Positions 3,001-45,813 of a stretch of 64,000 nt of DNA are shown piece by piece (within the stretch, counting starts at the first letter, position 1; each line of letters begins with the position of its first letter). The notes under the pieces are model-generated. The model was not told where the DNA came from, did no database searches, and saw only the letters and a program-made list of their open reading frames with translations. Both the position numbers and the translations under genes were made by a program. Origin of the DNA: Clostridia bacterium. Lineage in GTDB: Bacteria > Bacillota > Clostridia > Oscillospirales > Acutalibacteraceae. The stretch covers positions 1-64,000 of the forward strand of contig JAGASD010000006.1 of the NCBI GenBank assembly GCA_017621885.1. Direction: 5' to 3'.

Positions 3001-4733
3001 TATGAGTTATATACAAGGCTGAGGCTTACGGGCATTATTTCACTTACTGTTGAAGCAACGGGAATCTGATAAACAAGGTTACCGCTATAATCATTAACGT
3101 TACCCACGCCGCAGGAATCTTTAGAAAAGCTCGAATAACTCCAATAGCCCTCAAGACCCTTGTTGTTGCGGTAGGTGACGCTGACTGTGGGATAAACAAC
3201 CTCGCTGATATTGAACTCTGCGGAAATTATCTGGGCTCTGCCGACCTTTGTTTCATCAAGGCCTTTAAGCATAATACCGTAATTATTCGCACCTTCAAAC
3301 CAACCTTTTGCCGCACGGGTTATATCAAAGCTGTAGAAAGCACCGATACCGTGAGTTAATTCAGCGTAATCAAGGGCTACGCTGTTAAAGGCAGGCTGAT
3401 TATTCCATGTGGGAGCGCCTGTTGTTGTATGGTTCCAGTTTTCAGTTACCTGATGGGCGGAAATATATCTTTTTTCGCTACCGGCATCAATACTCATCTG
3501 ATAAATATTAAGCGCTACATTCTGAATTACACAGCATTCATCAGGTAAGTCCGGTAAATCAAATTTAATAAAGGCACGTGTTTTTCCTAAGGTGCTGTGC
3601 CCTGCATAGAGGTAATAGTCAAGGGGGAATCTTGTGTTCGGCTTACTTGCATCAACATAGCAATCCAAGGTATCTGCTCTGCTGATATCCAACACAATTG
3701 TGGGGTCAATGATAACGGGGTAAACTCGCGCTTTATTGTTAAGCCAATTTTTATCTGCCGTTACGGTCAGAGTGTATTTATCACCGTCGGGAGTCAGCTC
3801 CATTGAAACTGCATCTGAGTAAGCACCCGCAGAGTCTAGCATATACGGTGCGGTAATAACCGACTGCGCTTGCGTAAACGTACTGTCTTTATACAATACT
3901 ACGGAGCCGTCTGATTCTTTTCGTGGGTAAAGGTTACCCAAATCCATTGTGAACTCGAAAATATTTTTATTCTGCTTTTCGTTCAAAACAATGCTTTCTT
4001 TAAGAACATTGCTTGAAAGCTCATATTCAAGGCTTACTTTATCAAAAACATTTTCATATTTAACCGCGCCCTTTTGGTCTTCTACCTTGAGGGCGTTTGT
4101 TTTAATTTCTTCCCTGTTTTCGGGTTCCGATGTTTGTGAAAAAGTGCTGATTTCTGCAGAAGAAGTAATATTTGCGCTTACAAGCTCAGCATCTGTTGAA
4201 ATGCTGCCCGCAGAATTTTTCAGACCGCTCTGTTCAGCCTTAGGTGCAAAGGCTATTGTTGTATCGCCAACAGCAATGCTGATTTCATTATTCGCGTTTT
4301 TAGAAAGCTCCGCGGGGAGTTTTACGGGAATATCCGATGAAACCGGTTCATACACAGAAGCTGATGTGAGCGAACGCTGTGCGGATTGTTTTTCTTCAAA
4401 ATTAAAATCATATTCAACCCATTCCTCACCATTACGGTAATGCACGGGCGTTGAGTATCTTGATGCGATATATGAACCGTCTGACTGACGGAAATATTTC
4501 GTGTATTCATCACGAAGCTCGGTTATTTCATTAAGAACTTCAACCTCAGAGGATTCCTCCTCAGTTTCGGTATCAGTAACAATATCTGTGTTTTCTACAG
4601 TCTGCTCATGCGTTTCTTCAACTGCTTCTGCATTCTGCAACTCCATTGCAAAAACGGGATTCGCTGCAGAAAACACGCTGAAAAACATAACTGTTGCAAG
4701 AAATACCGAAAGTATTTTTATTGCTTTTTTCAT
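1..4733 (-). CDS. Large secreted DNRLRE/YD-repeat (RHS-type) protein, N-terminal part
   Basis: An open frame starts at ATG 4733 after a strong AGGAGG site and runs without a stop to the left edge, giving 1577 visible codons. The C-terminus lies outside the window. Residues 1-29 form a signal peptide ending in NPVFA. An acidic Thr/Glu-rich stretch follows. Around residues 330-580 is a DNRLRE-like region (TLDCYVDASKPNTRF, then TRAFIKFDLPDLP). Around 945-1280 are two jelly-roll, CBM-like segments (GKYYTFSAFVKTTN; SWQYASTPI). From about 660, and densely from about 1318, there are YD repeats such as YTYDYSGNV and FEYDEFGNV. Such proteins are exported or wall-associated filaments. In RHS proteins the C-terminal end often carries a variable toxin or adhesin domain, which cannot be seen here. 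The frame was checked at several points. Function is inferred from architecture only. Confidence 0.85.
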   Translation of the reverse strand, partial: MKKAIKILSVFLATVMFFSVFSAANPVFAMELQNAEAVEETHEQTVENTDIVTDTETEEESSEVEVLNEITELRDEYTKYFRQSDGSYIASRYSTPVHYRNGEEWVEYDFNFEEKQSAQRSLTSASVYEPVSSDIPVKLPAELSKNANNEISIAVGDTTIAFAPKAEQSGLKNSAGSISTDAELVSANITSSAEISTFSQTSEPENREEIKTNALKVEDQKGAVKYENVFDKVSLEYELSSNVLKESIVLNEKQNKNIFEFTMDLGNLYPRKESDGSVVLYKDSTFTQAQSVITAPYMLDSAGAYSDAVSMELTPDGDKYTLTVTADKNWLNNKARVYPVIIDPTIVLDISRADTLDCYVDASKPNTRFPLDYYLYAGHSTLGKTRAFIKFDLPDLPDECCVIQNVALNIYQMSIDAGSEKRYISAHQVTENWNHTTTGAPTWNNQPAFNSVALDYAELTHGIGAFYSFDITRAAKGWFEGANNYGIMLKGLDETKVGRAQIISAEFNISEVVYPTVSVTYRNNKGLEGYWSYSSFSKDSCGVGNVNDYSGNLVYQIPVASTVSEIMPVSLSLVYNSYAARDVYVSGKNGSYLTTPGRGWKLNIQETLLPSTEYGLTGDSAEQYPYVYTDGDGTEHYIQKVTKKDDNDNEIITYEDEDGLGLTLDPEATSTYTYKLTDKQDNEWYFNAKGNLGYMKDANGNIINIYFKDTNGDGTREKDKIDYIKDGTGHTLTFDYYPNSNYVKTITDNAGRVITFNTTGGYLNSVEYYDGTLTYIKYEDIKKSTGETDTEISLINYVWSSDRVGVNFDYTSSQTGYRVKKVKEFAATAVYPNYTNYVPGQVVTFDRTKYNTTVIRSGGVDGIIYDETDDTTNNKYDDIVTTLQFDNLGRTVSQQVSYGNGAEVGAGAYNYQNKEGSENKITDAASLGKNTRNMIKTGNTESDTYWAKNSTTGMSTAHYTSTGTPYVGHYTLAIANSHLDETAANSNYGQAVTGFTEGKYYTFSAFVKTTNVSPIGVGGLEGAYLQISATGGTENETGYSQVLTGTTETSINNGWRRLTATVQVPEDTTNLTVYMCLRNANGYVYFDGTQVEEGTTPNAVNLLLNSSFEAESDGLPVGWAKRGTADYATNSSGTVLTGVTSAAHKDGAKSLIISGYPEAYKGFSQSIPVQGNPNDTYILSGWAAAYAVNSTYHSHYEIDGEEPTDDELREILESADKEDDKTLELVEDSKFEIAVTVYYTKTDENGNIETNVPQDKTPVKFNTTIASWQYASTPIVLKYEKEAGDECTYTPTSIEIMPRYNLQANYAYFDHIQLIKDVAQSYVYDKEGNLVSVSANAEQKNNMTYDGEDNLTEYYDAGYNKTTFEYQEDTHNLTKVTSPKGVKTEYTYNTMGQVLATETTNPAGNYSIKTSVNLSDAADGISARAYIESDFDQNGYRTQYTYDNKTGTLLTTTSPNNLVTTNTYTDNKFSKLSRVSAQDTSVAYSYVDNRLKDITFGYKENVLYNEKYSFEYDEFGNVLNTKVGSVALSTNTYIANNGGLSESVYGNNDGVKYTYDYSGNVIAIKHKDNANGYNTAT

Positions 4734-7730: not shown

Positions 7731-7967
7731 AACATCCTCAATGGGAATATCAGTATTTATGGTGCAAAAAGCATAATCAGCCATTGGAATACACTTACTT
7801 ATAAAGATTCACTTTATGACATCCCCTTCAATATATGTTTTACCGCAGGCTATAAATTTTTACACCAAAAATGAAAAATAAAAACGCTAAAAAAGCAACC
7901 GAATCTCCCGTTTAACAACGATTACAATAAATGGTAATATAAATCATCTTTTTTCGGAGGGTTTATT

Positions 7968-8417
7968 ATGAAAAAAATCATTGTTCCGCTTTTAGTAATT
8001 GTAATAACAGTTTCACTGCTTTTATTTTCAGGCTGTAACAGCAACAACGAAACAGAAACAACAACTGCTGCTCCGACAACTCAGAAAATCCCGGGCAAAT
8101 ATGCCGGCAGTAAGTATCTCGGCTCCTGGTACAACGCAGATGCAAACGAAACCTTTGTTTGCACACTTAATGATAACGGAACAGCCGTTTTTAAAGAAGA
8201 TAAAAATGCCACTTGGACAGAAACTGCCACAGGAATAACAATCACCTCGACAGCAGACGGAGCTAAATCCACTATGGAAGGTTATTTCGTAATAGCCGGT
8301 GAAGGCTACGTTGCAAGGGCAACCGAGGCGAACATGCATTACCTGGACGAAGGCGGTACACTTCAGCTTGAAATAATGTTAACTGAGAATACCTGTGTTG
8401 ACTGTGTGAAGAAATAA
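7968..8417 (+). CDS. Small secreted lipoprotein of unknown function
   Basis: The 149-residue protein has a type II signal peptide with lipobox LFSGC (Cys23). A short Asn/Thr/Glu linker precedes a globular domain of about 105 residues. The domain begins KYLGSWYNADANETFVCTL and contains a WTETATGITIT strand, which looks like the small beta-rich lipoprotein domains that measure or bind something at the cell surface. I do not recognise a named family. The start ATG 7968 has GGAGG at a good distance. It is monocistronic, with a terminator just after the stop. Confidence 0.75.
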   Translation: MKKIIVPLLVIVITVSLLLFSGCNSNNETETTTAAPTTQKIPGKYAGSKYLGSWYNADANETFVCTLNDNGTAVFKEDKNATWTETATGITITSTADGAKSTMEGYFVIAGEGYVARATEANMHYLDEGGTLQLEIMLTENTCVDCVKK

Positions 8418-8422
8418 AAACA

Positions 8423-8453
8423 AAAACCACACTTTACAGAAAAGTGTGGTTTT
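8423..8453 (+). terminator. Intrinsic terminator after the small lipoprotein gene
   Basis: A 12-bp stem AAAACCACACTT / AAGTGTGGTTTT closes a 7-nt loop and ends in a T-run. It lies between the lipoprotein stop and the oppositely oriented tRNA-Gly, so it may work in both directions. Confidence 0.75.
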
Positions 8454-8458
8454 AAACT

Positions 8459-8534
8459 TGGAGCGGATGACGAGGCTCGAACTCGCTACCTCCACCTTGG
8501 CAAGGTGGCGCTCTACCGGATGAGCTACATCCGC
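8459..8534 (-). tRNA. tRNA-Gly (GCC)
   Basis: A full cloverleaf with acceptor GCGGATG/CATCCGC, D-arm, anticodon loop TTGCCAA (GCC), T-loop TTCGAGC and encoded CCA. It is 76 nt long and lies 25 nt downstream of tRNA-Phe, probably in one transcript. Confidence 0.95.
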
Positions 8535-8539
8535 ATATT

Positions 8540-8559
8540 ACGGGTAACAGTGTTACCCG

Positions 8560-8560
<1 letters not shown>
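8540..8560 (-). other. Hairpin between tRNA-Phe and tRNA-Gly
   Basis: A 9-bp perfect stem ACGGGTAAC / GTTACCCGT with a 3-nt loop fills the spacer between the two tRNAs. It touches the CCA end of tRNA-Phe. It has no T-run on the minus strand, so it is more likely a processing signal or leaky terminator than a full stop. Confidence 0.5.
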
Positions 8561-8635
<75 letters not shown>

Positions 8636-22924: not shown

Positions 22925-23893
22925 TCAGATAGAAATTTCGTTTGCAATACGGTAAAGCTCCGGATCAATTGATTTCTTCATATTGAGTGCTTCAATAATA
23001 TCATAATCAACAATTTTATCGTTTTTAACAACAACGACTCTGTTACCGATATCTTCTTTAAGAAGCTTAACTGCATAGAAGCCCATCTGGCTTGCAAGAA
23101 CTCTGTCGCGAACTGAGGGTGAACCGCCACGCTGAACGTGACCGAGAACTGTTGCACGGCTTTCAACGCCTGTTTTCTGCTCAATGTACTTTGCAAGGGA
23201 GTTAACATCAATACCCTTAACACCCTCTGCAACAACGATAACGAAATGCTCTTTGCCTGTTTTCTGAGTACGTTTCATTCTCTCAATGATGTAAGAATCA
23301 ATATCGTAATCAATCTCAGGAATAAGAATACAGGTTGCACCAACAGCAATACCTGCATTAAGAGCGAGATAACCTGCGTTTCTGCCCATAACCTCAACGA
23401 TTGAGCATCTGTCGTGCGATTCTGTTGTATCACGGATTCTGTCAACCATATCCATAACGGTATTTAATGCTGTATCGTAGCCGATTGTGTAATCGCAGGA
23501 AGCAATATCATTATCGATAGTGCCGGGAATACCGATACAGGGAATACCCTTTAATGTAAGTGCACGAGCACCCTTAAAAGTACCGTCACCACCAATGGTA
23601 ACAATACCGTCAAGACCGAATTCCTTACATACCTCAACTGCCTTATCCTGAACAGCAGGGTCTGCAAATTCAGCACAACGCGCTGAATAAAGCATTGTGC
23701 CACCGCGATGAATAATATCCGAAACAGAACGAAGATTCATTTCGAACATATCACCTTCAATAAGACCTTTGTATCCGCGACGAATACCCATAACGCGCAT
23801 ACCGCTTTCGCAACCGCTTCTGACAACTGCTCTGATAGCAGCATTCATACCGGGAGCGTCGCCACCACTTGTAAGAACACCAATAGTTTTCAA
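22925..23893 (-). CDS. pfkA: ATP-dependent 6-phosphofructokinase
   Basis: This is the committed step of glycolysis, making fructose 1,6-bisphosphate from fructose 6-phosphate and ATP. It is 322 residues from TTG 23893, which lies 8 nt after GGAGG and directly precedes KTIGVLTSGGDAPGMNAAIR. The ATG at 23914 would lie upstream of the ribosome site. VTIGGDGTFKGA with GGDGT marks an ATP-type enzyme. GIPGTIDNDI carries the catalytic Asp, and VLGHVQRGGSP is the family signature. Length matches bacterial PfkA (about 320). It is a single gene. Confidence 0.95.
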   Translation of the reverse strand: MKTIGVLTSGGDAPGMNAAIRAVVRSGCESGMRVMGIRRGYKGLIEGDMFEMNLRSVSDIIHRGGTMLYSARCAEFADPAVQDKAVEVCKEFGLDGIVTIGGDGTFKGARALTLKGIPCIGIPGTIDNDIASCDYTIGYDTALNTVMDMVDRIRDTTESHDRCSIVEVMGRNAGYLALNAGIAVGATCILIPEIDYDIDSYIIERMKRTQKTGKEHFVIVVAEGVKGIDVNSLAKYIEQKTGVESRATVLGHVQRGGSPSVRDRVLASQMGFYAVKLLKEDIGNRVVVVKNDKIVDYDIIEALNMKKSIDPELYRIANEISI

Positions 23894-23936
23894 CTTCAGA
23901 ACCTCCAAACACATAATGTATTATTAAATCTTGTGA

Positions 23937-23989: not shown

Positions 23990-25825
23990 TCATCCTCTTA
24001 AAACCACATTTTCGTCGCCGAAAATCAAGTTTAATTCTTTAATCAACGGCTTATTTACGTCAATAAGATAATCTTTTCCCATAAATTCATATTTTTGAGT
24101 ACTGCTGAAATACAGATAAACAGGAACATTACCTTCAAAAATTGATAAAAGATTTCTCAAGTCGGGAATTTTTTTCTCATCATTTTTACCGATTCTTATA
24201 AATAAGCCTTTTTTCTGCTTTGACGTATCCGTTTTAGGTGTTGACTCAGCAGCCTTAGGTGCGACGCTGATTTTTTCGGCAAGAAGCTTAATTTCTTCAT
24301 CCTTTACGGAAATACGACCTTCAACAAGAATAATGCTGCCCGCAAAAAGCAAGCCGGAATGTGCTGCAAAAATCTTAGGAAAAACAATCATCTCGATATT
24401 GCCGTATAAATCCTCCACATCGCAAAACGCCATAATCTCATCACGTTTTGTAAATTTCTTTTTTGACGATGTTACTATTCCGATAAAATTAACCTTCTGA
24501 TTGTCAATTAATTTTTCTTTTTTTGTTTCAATGTATTCAAGCAATTCAACGGTTTTCGGGCATCGCAGCCTTTGAGTTATATCTTTGTATTCTTCCAAAG
24601 GATGACCCGAAAAATAAAGACCGGCCACTTCTTTTTCAAAATTCAGAATTTCATTTTTAGGCAATTCGTCACATTTTGAAAACTGCGGCTCGCTTGAAAA
24701 ATCCTCACCGCCGAAAACAGAAAACATATCCAGCTGTCCGCCTGCATACATACTGTTTTCTTTTGCGGCACTTTCAACTGCAAGGTCAATATTTCTGAGC
24801 ATTTCGCAACGGTTCAAATCAAGCCCGTCAAGAGCACCTGCTTTTATAAGACATTCAAGAGCACGTCTGTTAAGCTCGGTGCCGCTGACCCTTTTACAAA
24901 AATCCCAGAAGCTTTTAAACTGCCCCTGTGCCTTTCTCTCTTTAACAATTTTTTGGATTAAAGCCCTGCCGATGTTTTTTATACCCAAAAGCGGGAAAAC
25001 AATGACATCATTTTTTACAGAAAACCGCTCATTACTATGATTGATATGCGGCGGTAAAACCTTTGTTTTAAGCCTTTCGCATTCATTTATATACAGTGCG
25101 GTTTTTGAAACGTCACCAATTACACTTGTGAGCAGTGCAGCCATAAACGCTTTCGGATATTTTACCTTGAGGTATGCAGTCTGATAGGCAATAAGTCCGT
25201 AAGCCGCCGTATGGCTCTTGTTGAAGCCGTAAGAAGCAAATGAAATCATATCCGAAAAAACATCCCCTGCTGTTTTTTTATCAATCCCCCTTCTCACCGC
25301 GCCCTCAATAACAACTTCACCGTTTTGGTTCTGAAGACCGTTTATAAAAATCTCACGCTCATTTTCCATAACGTCGCGTTTCTTTTTACTCATAGCTCTG
25401 CGAACAACATCGGCGCGACCGTAAGAATATCCGGCAAGAGTTCTGAAAACCTGCATTACCTGTTCCTGGTAAACCATGCAACCGTTTGTTTCATCAAGAA
25501 TATCTTTAAGCTCGGGTGTTCTGTAGCTGATGTGCTCGGGATTTTTTCTATTGTCAAGGTACGTATCGATAAAGAACATAGGGCCCGGTCTGTAAAGTGC
25601 AATTGCCGCAGCAATATCAGAAAATCTTTCAGGCTTCATATTCACAATCAGGTTAGTCATACCTGCAGATTCACATTGAAAAATACCAATTGTATTGCCT
25701 GCCGACATTTCTTCAAAGACACCGTTGTAATCAAGGGGTATTTTTGAAATATCAAAATTCTGCTCAGTCTTTTTTACTTCTTCAACAGCATCGTTTATAA
25801 CAGTAAGGGTGCGCAATCCGAGGAA
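23990..25825 (-). CDS. dnaE: DNA polymerase III subunit alpha, exon 2 (C-terminal 611 residues)
   Basis: This exon begins with TTC CTC GGA, completing the conserved DnaE motif KMD|FLGLRTLTVIND directly after the group II intron. It carries the fingers and C-terminal parts. GIFQCESAGM, AAIALYRPGPM, NKSHTAAYGLIAYQTAYLK, the helix-hairpin-helix region (CLIKAGALDGL) and the OB fold (VNFIGIVTSSKKKFT) appear in order. Residues 548-1158 of the spliced product are encoded here. The unspliced frame upstream (MLTVFITYHY) is intron sequence and should not be taken as an independent start. Exons 1 and 2 together give 1158 residues, the normal DnaE1 length. Confidence 0.92.
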   Translation of the reverse strand, partial: FLGLRTLTVINDAVEEVKKTEQNFDISKIPLDYNGVFEEMSAGNTIGIFQCESAGMTNLIVNMKPERFSDIAAAIALYRPGPMFFIDTYLDNRKNPEHISYRTPELKDILDETNGCMVYQEQVMQVFRTLAGYSYGRADVVRRAMSKKKRDVMENEREIFINGLQNQNGEVVIEGAVRRGIDKKTAGDVFSDMISFASYGFNKSHTAAYGLIAYQTAYLKVKYPKAFMAALLTSVIGDVSKTALYINECERLKTKVLPPHINHSNERFSVKNDVIVFPLLGIKNIGRALIQKIVKERKAQGQFKSFWDFCKRVSGTELNRRALECLIKAGALDGLDLNRCEMLRNIDLAVESAAKENSMYAGGQLDMFSVFGGEDFSSEPQFSKCDELPKNEILNFEKEVAGLYFSGHPLEEYKDITQRLRCPKTVELLEYIETKKEKLIDNQKVNFIGIVTSSKKKFTKRDEIMAFCDVEDLYGNIEMIVFPKIFAAHSGLLFAGSIILVEGRISVKDEEIKLLAEKISVAPKAAESTPKTDTSKQKKGLFIRIGKNDEKKIPDLRNLLSIFEGNVPVYLYFSSTQKYEFMGKDYLIDVNKPLIKELNLIFGDENVVLRG

Positions 25826-25885
25826 ATAGTGATAGGTAATGAACACCGTCAGCATTATCTGTTACGGGTCATTTTCCCCCACTTC

Positions 25886-25919
25886 ACACCGTACGTGCGA
25901 CTTTCATCGCATACGGCGT
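25886..25919 (-). ncRNA. Group II intron domain V
   Basis: A 34-nt hairpin: an 8-bp lower stem ACGCCGTA / TACGGTGT (including a G-T), bulge CG, upper stem TGCGAT / GTCGCA and a GAAA loop. The catalytic-triad position reads CGC rather than the commoner AGC. Confidence 0.88.
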
Positions 25920-25991
25920 TCCATCGTGAATAATAGACTTCGGTAATCTACTTTCGAATGATGTCAGAAACATATTATCGTTTAATAATAT

Positions 25992-27851
25992 CTAATTCAA
26001 TTTCTTGCGGTATTTAGCAAGTCTTTTCTTTGTGTCTTCTGACAGTTTTTCAGGCAATTCATCATTATGAATTAGTTTGTGACAGTATTCGTGCACTGTA
26101 ATAAGATATTTGGTCTTATTGACTTCGTTTATGGGAAGTTTGGGTGAAATGTGGTGTATGCGAACCTCATTCGGTTCTACATAGCCAGTACATATCTTGC
26201 ATTTTCCTTTATCACGATTGTACACATAGGGTCGGTTCATAAAGTATTCGAAATTGTATAAAGGGCTTTTGTTAGTTCTAATGTAGAGAGCGTGTTCCGA
26301 GGAATTTACTTCATCTACTCGAACCTTGAGACCTTTTTTTCGCATTCTTTTGTTGTAAAGTTCTCTACCTTCGGGAGTGTAAGGAGTTTCCTTTTGGTTC
26401 TTTGCATTTGGGTTCTCCCATTTGGCAAAGTTTATATCAGTTATTCCTATATACATTCCATTGTATTCAATTGCTGGTATGTGAGCATTGTGCCCACTGT
26501 GCAATCCGATTAGGTTAGAAACTTTGTTAGCTTTGACCCATTTACCTCCATAGCGTTTAAGTGATTTATATGCTGTGTATTTTAATTTCCACGCATACTT
26601 GCGAACCACAACGCTAATTTGGTCACACATACTGTAGTAATTTATTAGTCCCACTATTATTGAATTAACTCTGGTTACATTCTGTATAAGCCTCTCTCTG
26701 TCTGATGTTGGTGTTTTCCTAATCATAAACAGTTCCTGACTTAGACTTTTCATTTTCCTGTCAAACCTTTGTTTTTCAGGGTAAACCTTTGAGACCCATT
26801 TTCCATTCTTATTTACTAATTTAATTTCAGCCCCTAAAAACTTTACAGGCTTACTTTTGACATTAGTTATCAGAGTTTTTTCTTCCGAAAGTTCAAGCTT
26901 GAGAGTATCTTGTAGATATCTTTTGGCTTTATATTTCAGTTTCGTTGCATCTTCTTTGCTATCTGTAAGGATAACCCAATCATCTGCATATCTGATAAAG
27001 TAGGCGGTTTTAAGACAGCTATGATTTCTCATAGCGGTAAGTTCGCCATCTCTTCTGGTGTGGGGTCTTTTGAGCTTTTTTCTTTCGAAGTCGCCCGCAA
27101 TAAAGTGGTCAAACCGATTTAAGTATATATTTGCAAGTAGGGGTGAAATGACACCACCTTGCGGTGTTCCCATTTCACTCGTTCTACATTCATTCATAAC
27201 TCCTGCTTTAAGCATTTGTTTGATGATTGCTAATACCCTCTTGTCTCTGATGCCGATTTCCCATAGACTTTTAATCATTACATTGTGGTTTATGTTATCA
27301 AAGAAACCTTTGATATCTCCTTCGACTACCCAGTGACATTTAGCAATGTGGCAAAGTCTTTTAATTCTATCGATTACCATATCGGCTGACCTCATAGGTC
27401 TAAAGCCATAGGAATGTTCGAAGAACTGTCCCTCTGCTATGGGTTCAAGAATGTTCTTGACACATTGTTGTATTATTCGGTCTGAGATTGTTGGAATTCC
27501 GAGTGGTCTGAGTTCAGATTTACCCGGTTTGGGTATGTAAACTCTTTTTACGGCATCTGGATGATAGTCGTATAATTTCTTACGCACCATCTCTATAACT
27601 TCATCATATTTCATATTCAGGCAATCATCTATAACTTTTCCGTCAATACCTGCGGTATGGCTTCCTTTGTTACTTTTGATTTTATGAATAGCTGAAAGTA
27701 TGTTGGGTTCAGATGCTATGATTTCCAGAATTCCAGTAAAATTACTTTTCTGTCTATTATCATAATTCTGTTTTGCCGTTAAATATAGGTCTTGTAAGAG
27801 TTCGTTGAGTTCCTTTTCGTTTACAGGAACCTTGTTAAGTTTTGTCCCCAT
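25992..27851 (-). CDS. ltrA: Group II intron reverse transcriptase/maturase with HNH domain
   Basis: The 619-residue intron-encoded protein has RT motifs in order: IPKPGKSELRPLGIP (106-120), the FRP region at 150-152, EGDIKGFFDNIN (177-188), GTPQGGVISPLLANI (228-242) and the catalytic YADD (288-291). The X/maturase domain follows. The C-terminal HNH endonuclease (about 541-619) has CKIC, RIHHISP and HEYCHKLIH. All key residues are present, so it should be able to splice and retrohome. The start ATG 27851 has AGGGGGTGAT upstream. The protein binds its own intron RNA and is translated from unspliced dnaE transcript or from an intron promoter. Confidence 0.95.
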   Translation of the reverse strand: MGTKLNKVPVNEKELNELLQDLYLTAKQNYDNRQKSNFTGILEIIASEPNILSAIHKIKSNKGSHTAGIDGKVIDDCLNMKYDEVIEMVRKKLYDYHPDAVKRVYIPKPGKSELRPLGIPTISDRIIQQCVKNILEPIAEGQFFEHSYGFRPMRSADMVIDRIKRLCHIAKCHWVVEGDIKGFFDNINHNVMIKSLWEIGIRDKRVLAIIKQMLKAGVMNECRTSEMGTPQGGVISPLLANIYLNRFDHFIAGDFERKKLKRPHTRRDGELTAMRNHSCLKTAYFIRYADDWVILTDSKEDATKLKYKAKRYLQDTLKLELSEEKTLITNVKSKPVKFLGAEIKLVNKNGKWVSKVYPEKQRFDRKMKSLSQELFMIRKTPTSDRERLIQNVTRVNSIIVGLINYYSMCDQISVVVRKYAWKLKYTAYKSLKRYGGKWVKANKVSNLIGLHSGHNAHIPAIEYNGMYIGITDINFAKWENPNAKNQKETPYTPEGRELYNKRMRKKGLKVRVDEVNSSEHALYIRTNKSPLYNFEYFMNRPYVYNRDKGKCKICTGYVEPNEVRIHHISPKLPINEVNKTKYLITVHEYCHKLIHNDELPEKLSEDTKKRLAKYRKKLN

Positions 27852-28364
27852 AGGTAATCACCCCCTATGGTTAGTTCGTATCGCTCAACGGCTACCTTAA
27901 CAATTGAAGCTATCTTACATCATTCTATTCACGACTATGCCCCTTCGCTCCACAGACATTACTCTGCTTCATCACTACTACGGGCTGCTGTCCCTCAAAT
28001 ACATAGGTCATTTCCTACCTATTAGAAACATCGGTTCTTAAAAACCTTGTCATTTTCTTTTGAGGTTCATTTGTTCCGTTAAATCTATCCTTTAATTATA
28101 GTAACTTAGCCTTTGCCTTTAACCCGTAAACCATTCTTTTTTCCACTGTCGAAGGAATAAGAACTCCTAACCATTTTAATGGATAGGAACAGTAACCGCA
28201 ATGGACAATACCGTTACTGCGATTTAAACCCCTATGGGGGCAACCCAACTTTCGTCAGGGTCTCTAAATCACGAGCCTTTCATACGGCAATTTCTGGTGA
28301 GTAGGCATATTACATTTTACAGGACCCCCGATTTACTTCACTACCATATAGTCTACTTTAATAT

Positions 28365-28626
28365 TTTCAAGCGGGCGGGTTCTAACCACTTTTGAACCAA
28401 CTTTACTCCTATTATTTCTTCTATTTAGGTGTTTTTCAACCGACTTCACCGTGCTTTATACGATGTTAGTTTAAGTTAATATCGCATAACGGAGTATTAG
28501 GGAGTGAGGTATCGACATTTACCTCGTAAGTGGGATTTCACCACTCAAATCGATTTAACAGTTAAGCAAACTCTTTACTATATACTTTCCAGCAGGCGGG
28601 TTCTGACCACTTTTGTACCAACTGTA
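28365..28626 (-). repeat. Pair of 41-nt imperfect direct repeats in intron domain I
   Basis: 28365-28405 and 28586-28626 match at 36 of 41 positions, share the core GGCGGGTTCT and CCACTTTTG, and are 221 nt apart. Both lie in the 5' ribozyme portion of the intron. Confidence 0.75.
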
Positions 28627-28700
28627 CTTGTATATTTCATTCATTTGCTCCGCTAATTTGTTTTCCTTTCGGAAGGGTTTCATTAGCGAACAAATCGCAC

Positions 28701-30341
28701 ATCCATTTTAAGGAGACCGAGTTGTTCAATTTCAGTCATTGTAAACTGAGTAACTGTCTGGTCGCCGTTTTTTGCAAGAGGAACGTAAGAGCAAACCTCA
28801 TCACGGGTTATAACAACACCTGCCGCATGTGTTGAAGCGTGACGCGGCATTCCCTCAATTCTTGAGGCTGTATCAAGAACTTTTTTTATGTTATCGTCCG
28901 ATTCGTAAAGTGCTTTTAAATCAGCATTTTTATCTAAAGCGTCATTTATATCTGAAAACTCCCGCGAAAGCTGTTTTGCAACTGTATCACCTACGCTGTA
29001 CGGAAGCCCCAAGGCTCTTGCAACGTCACGCACCGCAGCTTTCGCCTGTAACGTACCGAAGGTAACAATCTGTGCCACACGGTCTGTACCGTATTTGCGG
29101 TTTACGTAATCAATAACCTCGCCCCTGCGCTCATAACAGAAGTCGATATCAATATCGGGCATACTTACTCTTTCGGGATTTAAAAATCTTTCGAAAAGAA
29201 GCTTGTTTTCAATAGGGTCAATACCGGTAATACCCAGAGCATATGCCGCAAGAGAGCCTGCCGCAGAGCCTCTGCCCGGTCCTACGGGGATATTCCTGCT
29301 TTTAGCAAATCTTATGAAATCGGCAACAATCAGGAAATAATCGTTAAAGCCCATACTGTCAATTACACTTAACTCATATTCAAGGCGCTTCATATATTTC
29401 TCAGCAACTGTACCGAATATATTTTCGAGACCTTTTACACATTCACTTCTAAGAAATGCCTTATGGTCGTCAACGGGTGCATCAAACAAGGGGAGCTTTG
29501 TAACCCCAAATTCAAAATCGAAATTGCATTTTTCTGCAATAACCATTGTATTTGATACGGCTTCAGGATAAGCAGAAAAGGCATCTGCCATTTCGTCACC
29601 GTTTTTAAGATAAAACTCATCGTTTGTAAATTCGAGTGCATTTTCTTCGCCAACAACTTTGTTTGTCTGAATTGCAATAAGCACGCGTTGGATATCTGCA
29701 TCACTTTTAAGACAATAATGAGTGTCATTGGTGGCTACCATAGGTATATTCAATTCTCTGCTTATTGAAACAACACCGTCAATAACCTCTTGCTCTTCAA
29801 CCATACCGTGATTCTGAATTTCAAGATAATAGTTACCGTCACCAAACAAATCGCGATACCAACGGGCGGTTTCTTTTGCCTCATCAATGTTACGTTGAAG
29901 AATACGCTGTGAAATCTCACCAAAAAGACAACCGGAAAGTGCAATAAGACCCTCGTGATGCTTTTCAAGAATCTCTCTGTCTATTCGGGGTTTGGTGTAA
30001 AATCCGTCAACCCATGCAGAAGAAACAAGCTGTAAAAGATTCTTATAACCGGTTTCATTTTTACAAAGAAGAATAAGGTGATAGCGGTCACTGTCAATAC
30101 CGTTAACCTTATCAAATCTTGAACGGGGTGCAACGTAAACCTCACAACCGATAATAGGTTTTACCCCTTCTGCTTTGCAGGCTTTATAAAATGCAACTGC
30201 ACCGTACAAAACACCGTGGTCAGTGATTGCAAGGTTTTTTTGTCCCATACTTTTTGCACGGGAAACTACCTCCCCGATACGGCAAGCGCCATCGAGAAGG
30301 CTGTATTCTGTATGCAGATGTAAATGTGTGAATTCAGTCAT
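28701..30341 (-). CDS. dnaE: DNA polymerase III subunit alpha, exon 1 (N-terminal 547 residues)
   Basis: This exon has the PHP domain (THLHLHTEYSLLDGA, 5-19; ITDHGVLYG), GPGRGSAAGSL (about 354-364), then the palm with catalytic acidic motif PDIDIDF (395-401). It ends in QLGLLKMD at 28701, where the intron begins. Reading on without splicing gives only VRFVR and a stop at 28683. The start ATG 30341 lies 5 nt after the araD stop and lacks a clear ribosome site, so translation may be coupled to araD. The product is the C-family replicative polymerase. Splicing is needed to join it to the other 611 residues. Confidence 0.93.
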
Positions 30342-45644: not shown

Positions 45645-45813
45645 AATGTAAGATAGCTCTCCGCCATAAGGCGACAACAACACAGATATTATTCCATGCT
45701 GCCAGACCGACCCTTCACCACGAGTCGACTTCGGCACCTGCTCCTTTCGCCGCAGACGTCCGGTAAACGTATAACTACGGGTACTGATAACAAAATGCAC
45801 CTCTATCGGTTGC
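45645..45813 (-). promoter_or_regulatory. Lysine riboswitch (L-box)
   Basis: On minus the leader shows the L-box order: ATAGAGGTGC, a CAGTA segment, GGCGAAAGGAGC, GTGCCGAAG, GGTCTGGCAGC and the closing GGCGGAGAGCTATC. The GATAG of the opening pairs with CTATC of the closing as P1. A terminator follows. The family is a transcription-attenuating lysine sensor in Firmicutes, and the downstream genes dapA and lysA fit. Confidence 0.92.

Follow-up and report, generated by a model that had tools for sequence, protein, structure and literature searches.

Introns are known in the dnaE gene of Trichodesmium, and Firmicutes are known hosts of group IIB class B introns with a reverse transcriptase (RT)-maturase-HNH protein. 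Interrupted cyanobacterial dnaE genes are also described as split inteins, which act on the protein (excerpts of PMC12702839 and PMC3403396), and homing-endonuclease group I introns and inteins as elements that target immutable motifs, from which hosts cannot escape by mutation (excerpt of PMC2814812). For group II introns the survey in the last of these excerpts detected no bias towards conserved sites (combined p = 0.49), and most bacterial ones lie outside housekeeping genes according to an excerpt of PMC4424553, in agreement with an earlier note on the DNA studied here, which held that such introns usually avoid essential genes. Here we describe a stretch of 64,000 nucleotides (nt) from a bacterium of the Clostridia (family Acutalibacteraceae; assembly GCA_017621885.1, contig JAGASD010000006.1, positions 1 to 64,000 of the forward strand; hereafter "the window"), in which dnaE, on the minus strand, is split in phase 0 at KMD/FLGLR (the slash marking the insertion point) by a group II intron. 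As in the cyanobacterial genes, DnaE would have to be spliced to be made, whereas here the splicing would act on RNA; as in homing-endonuclease group I introns and inteins, an immutable motif is targeted, whereas the site would be recognised by a guide RNA. With the Firmicutes class B introns it shares the hosts, the type of protein and the matching Rfam models. The intron probably represents a mobile lineage that has specialised on this one site in dnaE.

Exon 1 (28701..30341, minus strand; 547 codons, ending in KMD) has profile matches to the PHP and DNA_pol3_alpha domains, and exon 2 (23990..25825, minus strand; 611 codons and a stop) to the finger, HhH and OB domains. Both lengths (1,641 and 1,836 nt, respectively) are divisible by three, and the joined exons encode a DnaE of 1,158 residues with one terminal stop and a junction that reads LGLLKMD/FLGLRTLTVI, in line with the KMD/FLGLR join of the earlier note. 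Mechanically delimited open reading frames (ORFs) run past both exons: ORF 28683..30341 overshoots exon 1 by five intron codons and then stops, and ORF 23990..25855 is longer than exon 2, its start being an in-frame ATG 30 nt inside the intron. The intron itself (25826..28700, minus strand; 2,875 nt), placed by Rfam matches and the exon join, begins with GTGCG and ends with AT. Part of its domain I matches RF02004 (group-II-D1D4-5; 28317..28566, minus strand; 66.4 bits, cut-off 34.5), and domains V-VI match RF00029 (Intron_gpII; 25921-25826, minus strand; 57.7 bits, cut-off 40), a match that ends on the last base of the intron and is the only one to this model found in the genome. Domain V is a 34-nt hairpin (25886..25919, minus strand), the segment 25880-25930 folding at -20 kcal/mol (z -3.2), and is followed by domain VI with the 3' splice site (25826..25885, minus strand). 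Domain IV holds the gene of a 619-amino-acid (aa) intron-encoded protein (IEP), an RT/maturase (25992..27851, minus strand), which matches PF00078 and TIGR04416 (group II reverse transcriptase/maturase; 328.3 bits, cut-off 300) and has YADD at residue 288 and, in a C-terminus that by reading is HNH-like, CKIC at 551 and HH at 566. Rfam, TIGR04416 and the YADD motif therefore bear out the intron of the earlier note, with its GTGCG and AT ends, 34-nt domain V and maturase, and the window shows these group II features: GUGYG and AY ends, domain V and VI hairpins, a domain I with exon-binding site 1 (EBS1) and an RT/maturase in domain IV.

To look for relatives, six exact peptide patterns, which give a lower bound, were run against genome_contigs (84,980 species, each represented by one genome), and at least 34 loci were found. 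Fourteen of them (L035-L046, L049 and L064) lie in dnaE with the boundary between residues 547 and 548. In 12 of these the IEP shares 67-79% identity with that of the window along the whole protein; in L046 and L064 the match is truncated, and the identity along it is 77 and 84%, respectively. The other 20 loci, with IEPs 33-49% identical, have no DnaE match in the available flanks. The intron of Lysinibacillus composti (L065), with an IEP 49% identical, lies in a different gene, its 3' exon reading as recA (named by reading), and its IEP does not fall within the dnaE clade of the IEP tree. The 5' junction was read directly in 12 of the 14 dnaE loci, and that of the genome of L046 was recovered as L095, an exon 1 followed by an intron that starts with GTGCG; the 3' junction was also read directly in 12, L035 ending before it and L038 carrying about 68 extra nt there. 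At one or both ends the same nucleotide junction is found in all 14 records. The carriers belong to the Lachnospiraceae and Oscillospiraceae, with a Cellulosilyticum metagenome-assembled genome (MAG), a Eubacterium MAG and one Bacilli MAG, and include two named strains, Faecalimonas umbilicata DSM 103426 (L040) and Lachnospiraceae bacterium TWA4. The intron is thus one of a dnaE-specific lineage with at least 15 carrier genomes, that of the window included; the earlier note, which knew of no clostridial case, was right about a group II intron in a clostridial dnaE, but the case is not an isolated one.

The lineage is sparse. In a sample of the window's family it occurs in two of 398 genomes (the window's and G139, the record of L044), some relative of the IEP being present at E 1e-20 in 41 of the 398 with the next best by E-value 42% identical, and in a class-level sample it occurs in one of 391, the window itself (E 1e-140). 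Within the window's genus, 20 of 22 genomes have a match to dnaE exon 2 at E 1e-100; these are the window, one fragment that stops short of the site and 18 genomes in which dnaE is uninterrupted across it, with KMDF in 16, KIDF in one and KMDL in one. The search for intron-free alleles that had been proposed earlier therefore found them, and occupied and empty alleles of one site are both present (15 genomes versus 18 congeners). Group IIB relatives also occur on mobile elements (at E 1e-60, 354 records from plasmids and 5 from phages), every one with less than 60% IEP identity, whereas the dnaE lineage was found only in dnaE; no relative was found among viral_contigs, and these searches yielded no vehicle for the intron.

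Members of the lineage vary in several details of the intron. The 5' end is GTGYG in 12 of the 13 members seen there, the window included (GTGCG in 11, GTGTG in L044), the sole exception being L049 with GCGCG, and 13 of 13 members have an open IEP frame that includes YADD. A 61-nt direct repeat (28361-28421 and 28582-28642, 80% identical, spacing 221) lies in the 5' part of the window intron; its 5'-proximal copy occurs in five of 13 members and is missing from eight. In four relatives the stretch from the IEP stop to domain V holds an additional ORF (L044 about 7861-8574, L036 7861-8249, L037 7858-8421 and L045 7858-8217). One product is lipoprotein-like and has 192 aa, and the others are small (68, 106 and 75 aa), with N-termini that read as hydrophobic; the 106-aa product is 131 aa from an upstream start and matches DUF3139 at 28.8 bits (cut-off 27.3). 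The same gap is 347 nt in L040, with no ORF of 50 aa, and 72-105 nt in the window and seven others (L035 and L046 are outside this count). The roughly 68 extra nt of L038 lie between domain VI and the 3' exon (about 4427-4494) and resemble the class B 3' extension, which is known in some introns of that class (excerpt of PMC4424553). This extension and the Firmicutes hosts fit a class B label, which may apply to the lineage.

The guide of the lineage was sought by scanning 5- to 8-nt stretches of the aligned 5' intron parts of 13 members against exon positions -20 to -1. One 7-nt complementary element is present in all 13 when G.U pairs are allowed, at intron positions 495-501 (5'-GUCCAUU-3'; 28200..28206, minus strand) against exon positions -7 to -1, and apart from it the scan listed only 5-nt matches, each in 9 to 12 of the 13. 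By its position and register this invariant element is the predicted EBS1, and its partner, intron-binding site 1 (IBS1; AATGGAT in the window, 28701..28707, minus strand), consists of the last base of the Lys codon and the whole Met and Asp codons. The element sits in a hairpin (28189..28220, minus strand; arms 28220-28210 and 28199-28189) with compensatory changes in the family: one arm pair is G-C, A-U, U-A or C-G depending on the member, and UGUCCAUU is unchanged in all 13. Six of the 11 arm pairs hold in all 13 members and the weakest in eight. Folded alone, the full window hairpin has -14 kcal/mol (z -3.9), and the proposed stem was obtained in the four members folded (the window, L036, L040 and L045; z -2.7 to -5.2). 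In 14 outgroup loci, where the splice sites are uncertain, EBS1 is ambiguous, and we draw no comparison of wobble pairing with these.

Silent variation is possible at two of the seven IBS1 positions, A or G in the third base of Lys (AAR) and T or C in that of Asp (GAY). The guide bases that face them are U and G, respectively, so that either alternative is accepted through G.U pairing. The 13 hosts spell Lys and Asp of the K-M-D motif as AAA-GAT (seven), AAA-GAC (four), AAG-GAT (one) and AAG-GAC (one), which gives T in eight and C in five at exon position -1, and A in 11 and G in two at -7. A guide restricted to Watson-Crick pairs would fit at most seven of the 13 at this site, and with G.U all 13 are fitted. 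We aligned the codons of the 13 carriers (10 for exon 2) and tested 2,157 windows of seven bases, each covered by 10 or more sequences, which together span roughly the first two thirds of the gene. In 25 of these windows one guide could address all the sequences present; eight contiguous ones lie at the KMD site (three with 13 sequences and five with 10) and the rest elsewhere. The KMD site is then one of a small number of positions in dnaE at which a single guide could serve diverged hosts, but it is not the only one.

The Asp that precedes the intron corresponds in the alignment to residue 555 in PDB chains 2hnh_A and 5fku_A, which we take to be Escherichia coli DnaE, and to residue 618 of 2hpi_A, presumably Thermus aquaticus DnaE. 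The active-site aspartates that bind metal in E. coli are D401, D403 and D555, described as absolutely conserved in the C family (excerpt of PMC3919608), and D555 is given as an active-site aspartate in an excerpt of PMC8485763 as well. Replacement of this residue would in all likelihood cost a host its polymerase, and silent changes would leave the pairing undisturbed. The persistence of the address across hosts would follow from these two properties, that the Asp is catalytic and that silent changes keep the EBS1 pairing.

Comparison of the 13 carriers in which the 5' part is complete (78 pairs, the window included) points to recent transfer of the intron between the dnaE genes of different hosts. 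DnaE exon 1 is 36-74% identical between carriers, and in all 78 pairs the IEP is more similar than DnaE exon 1. The contrast is strongest in L035/L044 (noncoding 5' part 97.2%, IEP 94.8% and DnaE exon 1 58.6% identical), L040/L041 (94.0%, 91.7% and 57.0%) and L038/L039 (90.6%, 91.6% and 61.4%), and is milder between the window and L035 (79.9%, 79.2% and 54.3%). What suggests transfer is that, within one contig, the noncoding ribozyme has diverged much less than the polymerase that surrounds it. The IEP tree sets a Lachnospiraceae-rich set apart from an Oscillospiraceae-rich one, from which intron exchange seems commoner within host groups than between them. We preferred pairwise identities to trees for this history, since the DnaE tree, from which four of six additional congeners (L071, L075, L078 and L086) were left out because their sequences were too short, has a very long L043 branch and four starred forks of 12.

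PF07733 was matched at two loci in the genome of the window (2.63 Mb in 64 contigs, 94% complete), the interrupted dnaE and, on another contig, a 1,237-aa PolC (NF001688, 1,437 bits; L089 2126-5839, minus strand). The PolC is short and by reading has a PHP domain without the usual exonuclease insertion. Some clostridial PolCs are reported to lack that insertion in an excerpt of PMC3919608, which in 2013 termed the clostridial set of PolC and DnaE1 experimentally uncharacterised. Thirteen of the relatives' 14 genomes each have a single strong DnaE-type match (320-370 bits); the open frame that contains it measures only 511-691 aa, which is the size of an exon 1 cut off by an intron, and the remaining matches, at most 194 bits, are taken as PolC-type by score alone. 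The fourteenth, G808 (the genome of L064), has no strong DnaE-type N-terminal match, perhaps because of a contig break. A backup DnaE was accordingly not found with PF07733 in 14 assemblies, those of the window and of 13 of the 14 relatives. The search for a second dnaE or polC that the earlier note had suggested thus returned PolC and, within the 94%-complete genome, no second DnaE, in keeping with its premise that the interrupted gene is the only dnaE; its conclusion that replication depends on RNA splicing is too strong, as the second replicative polymerase, PolC, is intact.

These observations suggest the following course of events. The intron RNA and its maturase would splice out of the dnaE transcript and restore the frame; we infer that this occurs in vivo and that the cell depends on it. 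The ribonucleoprotein would locate intron-free dnaE alleles by pairing of EBS1 with the seven bases that comprise the end of the Lys codon and the Met and Asp codons, and, by the known mechanism of the family, the intron would reverse splice into the target and be copied by the RT; such retrohoming may be the mode of spread because of the contrast in identity between intron or IEP and DnaE exon 1. With U and G facing the third bases of AAR and GAY, one fixed guide fits all four K-M-D spellings, and selection may maintain these wobble-facing bases. Since the protein motif could not change without harm to the polymerase, distant hosts would share the address and the intron could move among their dnaE genes, a transfer that the same identity contrasts favour. 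The fullest form of the proposal, that the guide of a retroelement has evolved to address an amino-acid motif and not a single fixed stretch of DNA, with no conserved EBS2, and has spread through the Clostridia and into a Bacilli MAG, making the sole DnaE dependent on ribozyme splicing, stands in our judgement at even chances. As far as searched, the lineage is new in its target and its wobble-facing guide, all of its working parts being already known: among the matches listed from full-text literature, which mostly excludes subscription journals and was represented by excerpts, no group II intron at KMD/F of dnaE and no wobble-facing EBS1 bases were found.

Several observations weigh against a lineage specialised in this way. 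Group IIB introns normally use a second exon-binding site, EBS2, and the exact-match scan found no element of at least 5 nt within exon positions -20 to -8 with a partner column in at least nine of the 13 members; the Leu codons upstream of KMD also vary among hosts. The G.U at -1, on which eight of 13 introns rely, the window's included, is a weaker pair, a second run of eight addressable windows lies at codons 666-668 (others are in short runs), and the invariance of EBS1 could come partly from common ancestry and from the survival of introns at good sites. The intron tree, too, broadly follows host group, and some vertical descent within groups is possible. Carried further, this becomes a rival history in which dnaE was invaded a single time, in an ancestor, by an ordinary group II intron that was then passed on by vertical descent, conservation of the guide being due to ancestry and the G.U tolerance incidental. 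It would account for an IEP tree that separates the Lachnospiraceae-rich and Oscillospiraceae-rich sets roughly as DnaE does, but it is difficult to reconcile with an uninterrupted site in 18 congeners and a lineage present in two of 398 family-sample genomes, with noncoding intron sequence 91-97% identical in three host pairs in which DnaE exon 1 is 57-61% identical, or with an EBS1 stem that changed when its loop did not. We regard it as quite improbable, and as the main history vertical inheritance was rejected on the identity contrast and the empty congeners.

The remaining points against the specialised lineage concern splicing, which may be absent or inefficient; dnaE would then be dead or its halves translated separately, and either PolC would carry replication or the halves would assemble. 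Exon 1 indeed reaches an in-frame stop four to five intron codons in, in 12 of 13 members (18 codons in L049), an in-frame ATG in domain VI (25826-25855, minus strand), 30 nt before exon 2, is present in 10 of the 13 members for which the 3' end is available, and PolC is intact. That ATG is, however, missing in L036, L037 and L042, and no clear ribosome-binding site was seen upstream of it; the ends, domains V-VI and IEP of the window intron are intact, as are the IEP frames of the family, and from host to host the exons meet with single-nucleotide precision, which separately translated halves would not require. An open frame of 486-683 aa leads to the stop of exon 2 in 10 of those 13 members, L036 and L046 running off the contig and L040 being interrupted again. 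Failure to splice therefore seems unlikely to us, though less so than a purely vertical history. An artefact of assembly or binning might be suspected from the fact that the genome of the window and most of those of the relatives are fragmented or MAGs, but the identical nucleotide junction recurs at one or both ends in all 14 relatives' records, with exon and intron on one contig, and these include two named strains (L037, on a 3.1-Mb scaffold, and L040); this explanation is scarcely credible. The assembly join that the earlier note had named as a possible refutation is ruled out by that shared junction.

The second interruption of the F. umbilicata dnaE is itself a group II intron (L040 8900..10219; 1,320 nt; RF02004 125.9 bits, RF00029 56.3 bits), with a GTTCG 5' end and a truncated IEP frame of 132 aa. 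It cuts exon 2 one base past the FNK codons (FNK/S), and its removal restores AFNKSHAAAY; this dnaE would then need two RNA splicing events. Several 6-7-nt candidates in this intron pair with the exon, none of them decisively, and the presumed IBS1 overlaps, without being, one of the 25 addressable windows (starts at nt 2242-2244). Downstream of dnaE the window has a 6-phosphofructokinase-like gene (22925..23914, minus strand; named from reading the ORF translation), and a similar gene, named by reading translations, also follows dnaE in L040. A lysine riboswitch lies elsewhere in the window (45646-45813, minus strand; 73.3 bits). We note that in a Planococcus sp. (L055 2226-7954) three RF00029 and two RF02004 matches fall within about 6 kb, several group II introns being close together there.

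The dnaE lineage runs counter to the patterns described for group II introns in the excerpted sources, both the avoidance of housekeeping genes (PMC4424553) and the absence of a preference for conserved sites (PMC2814812). It occupies the codon for an active-site residue in the only DnaE found and keeps one guide across hosts with 36-74% identity in DnaE exon 1, and this provides a testable case of an RNA-guided mobile element that tracks a protein motif. The named strains F. umbilicata DSM 103426 and Lachnospiraceae bacterium TWA4 allow one to ask how cells tolerate ribozyme splicing in a replication gene. If the proposal is true, silent changes would give the host no immunity, U and G facing the synonymous positions, and the address would be the catalytic-aspartate codon of its replicative polymerase.

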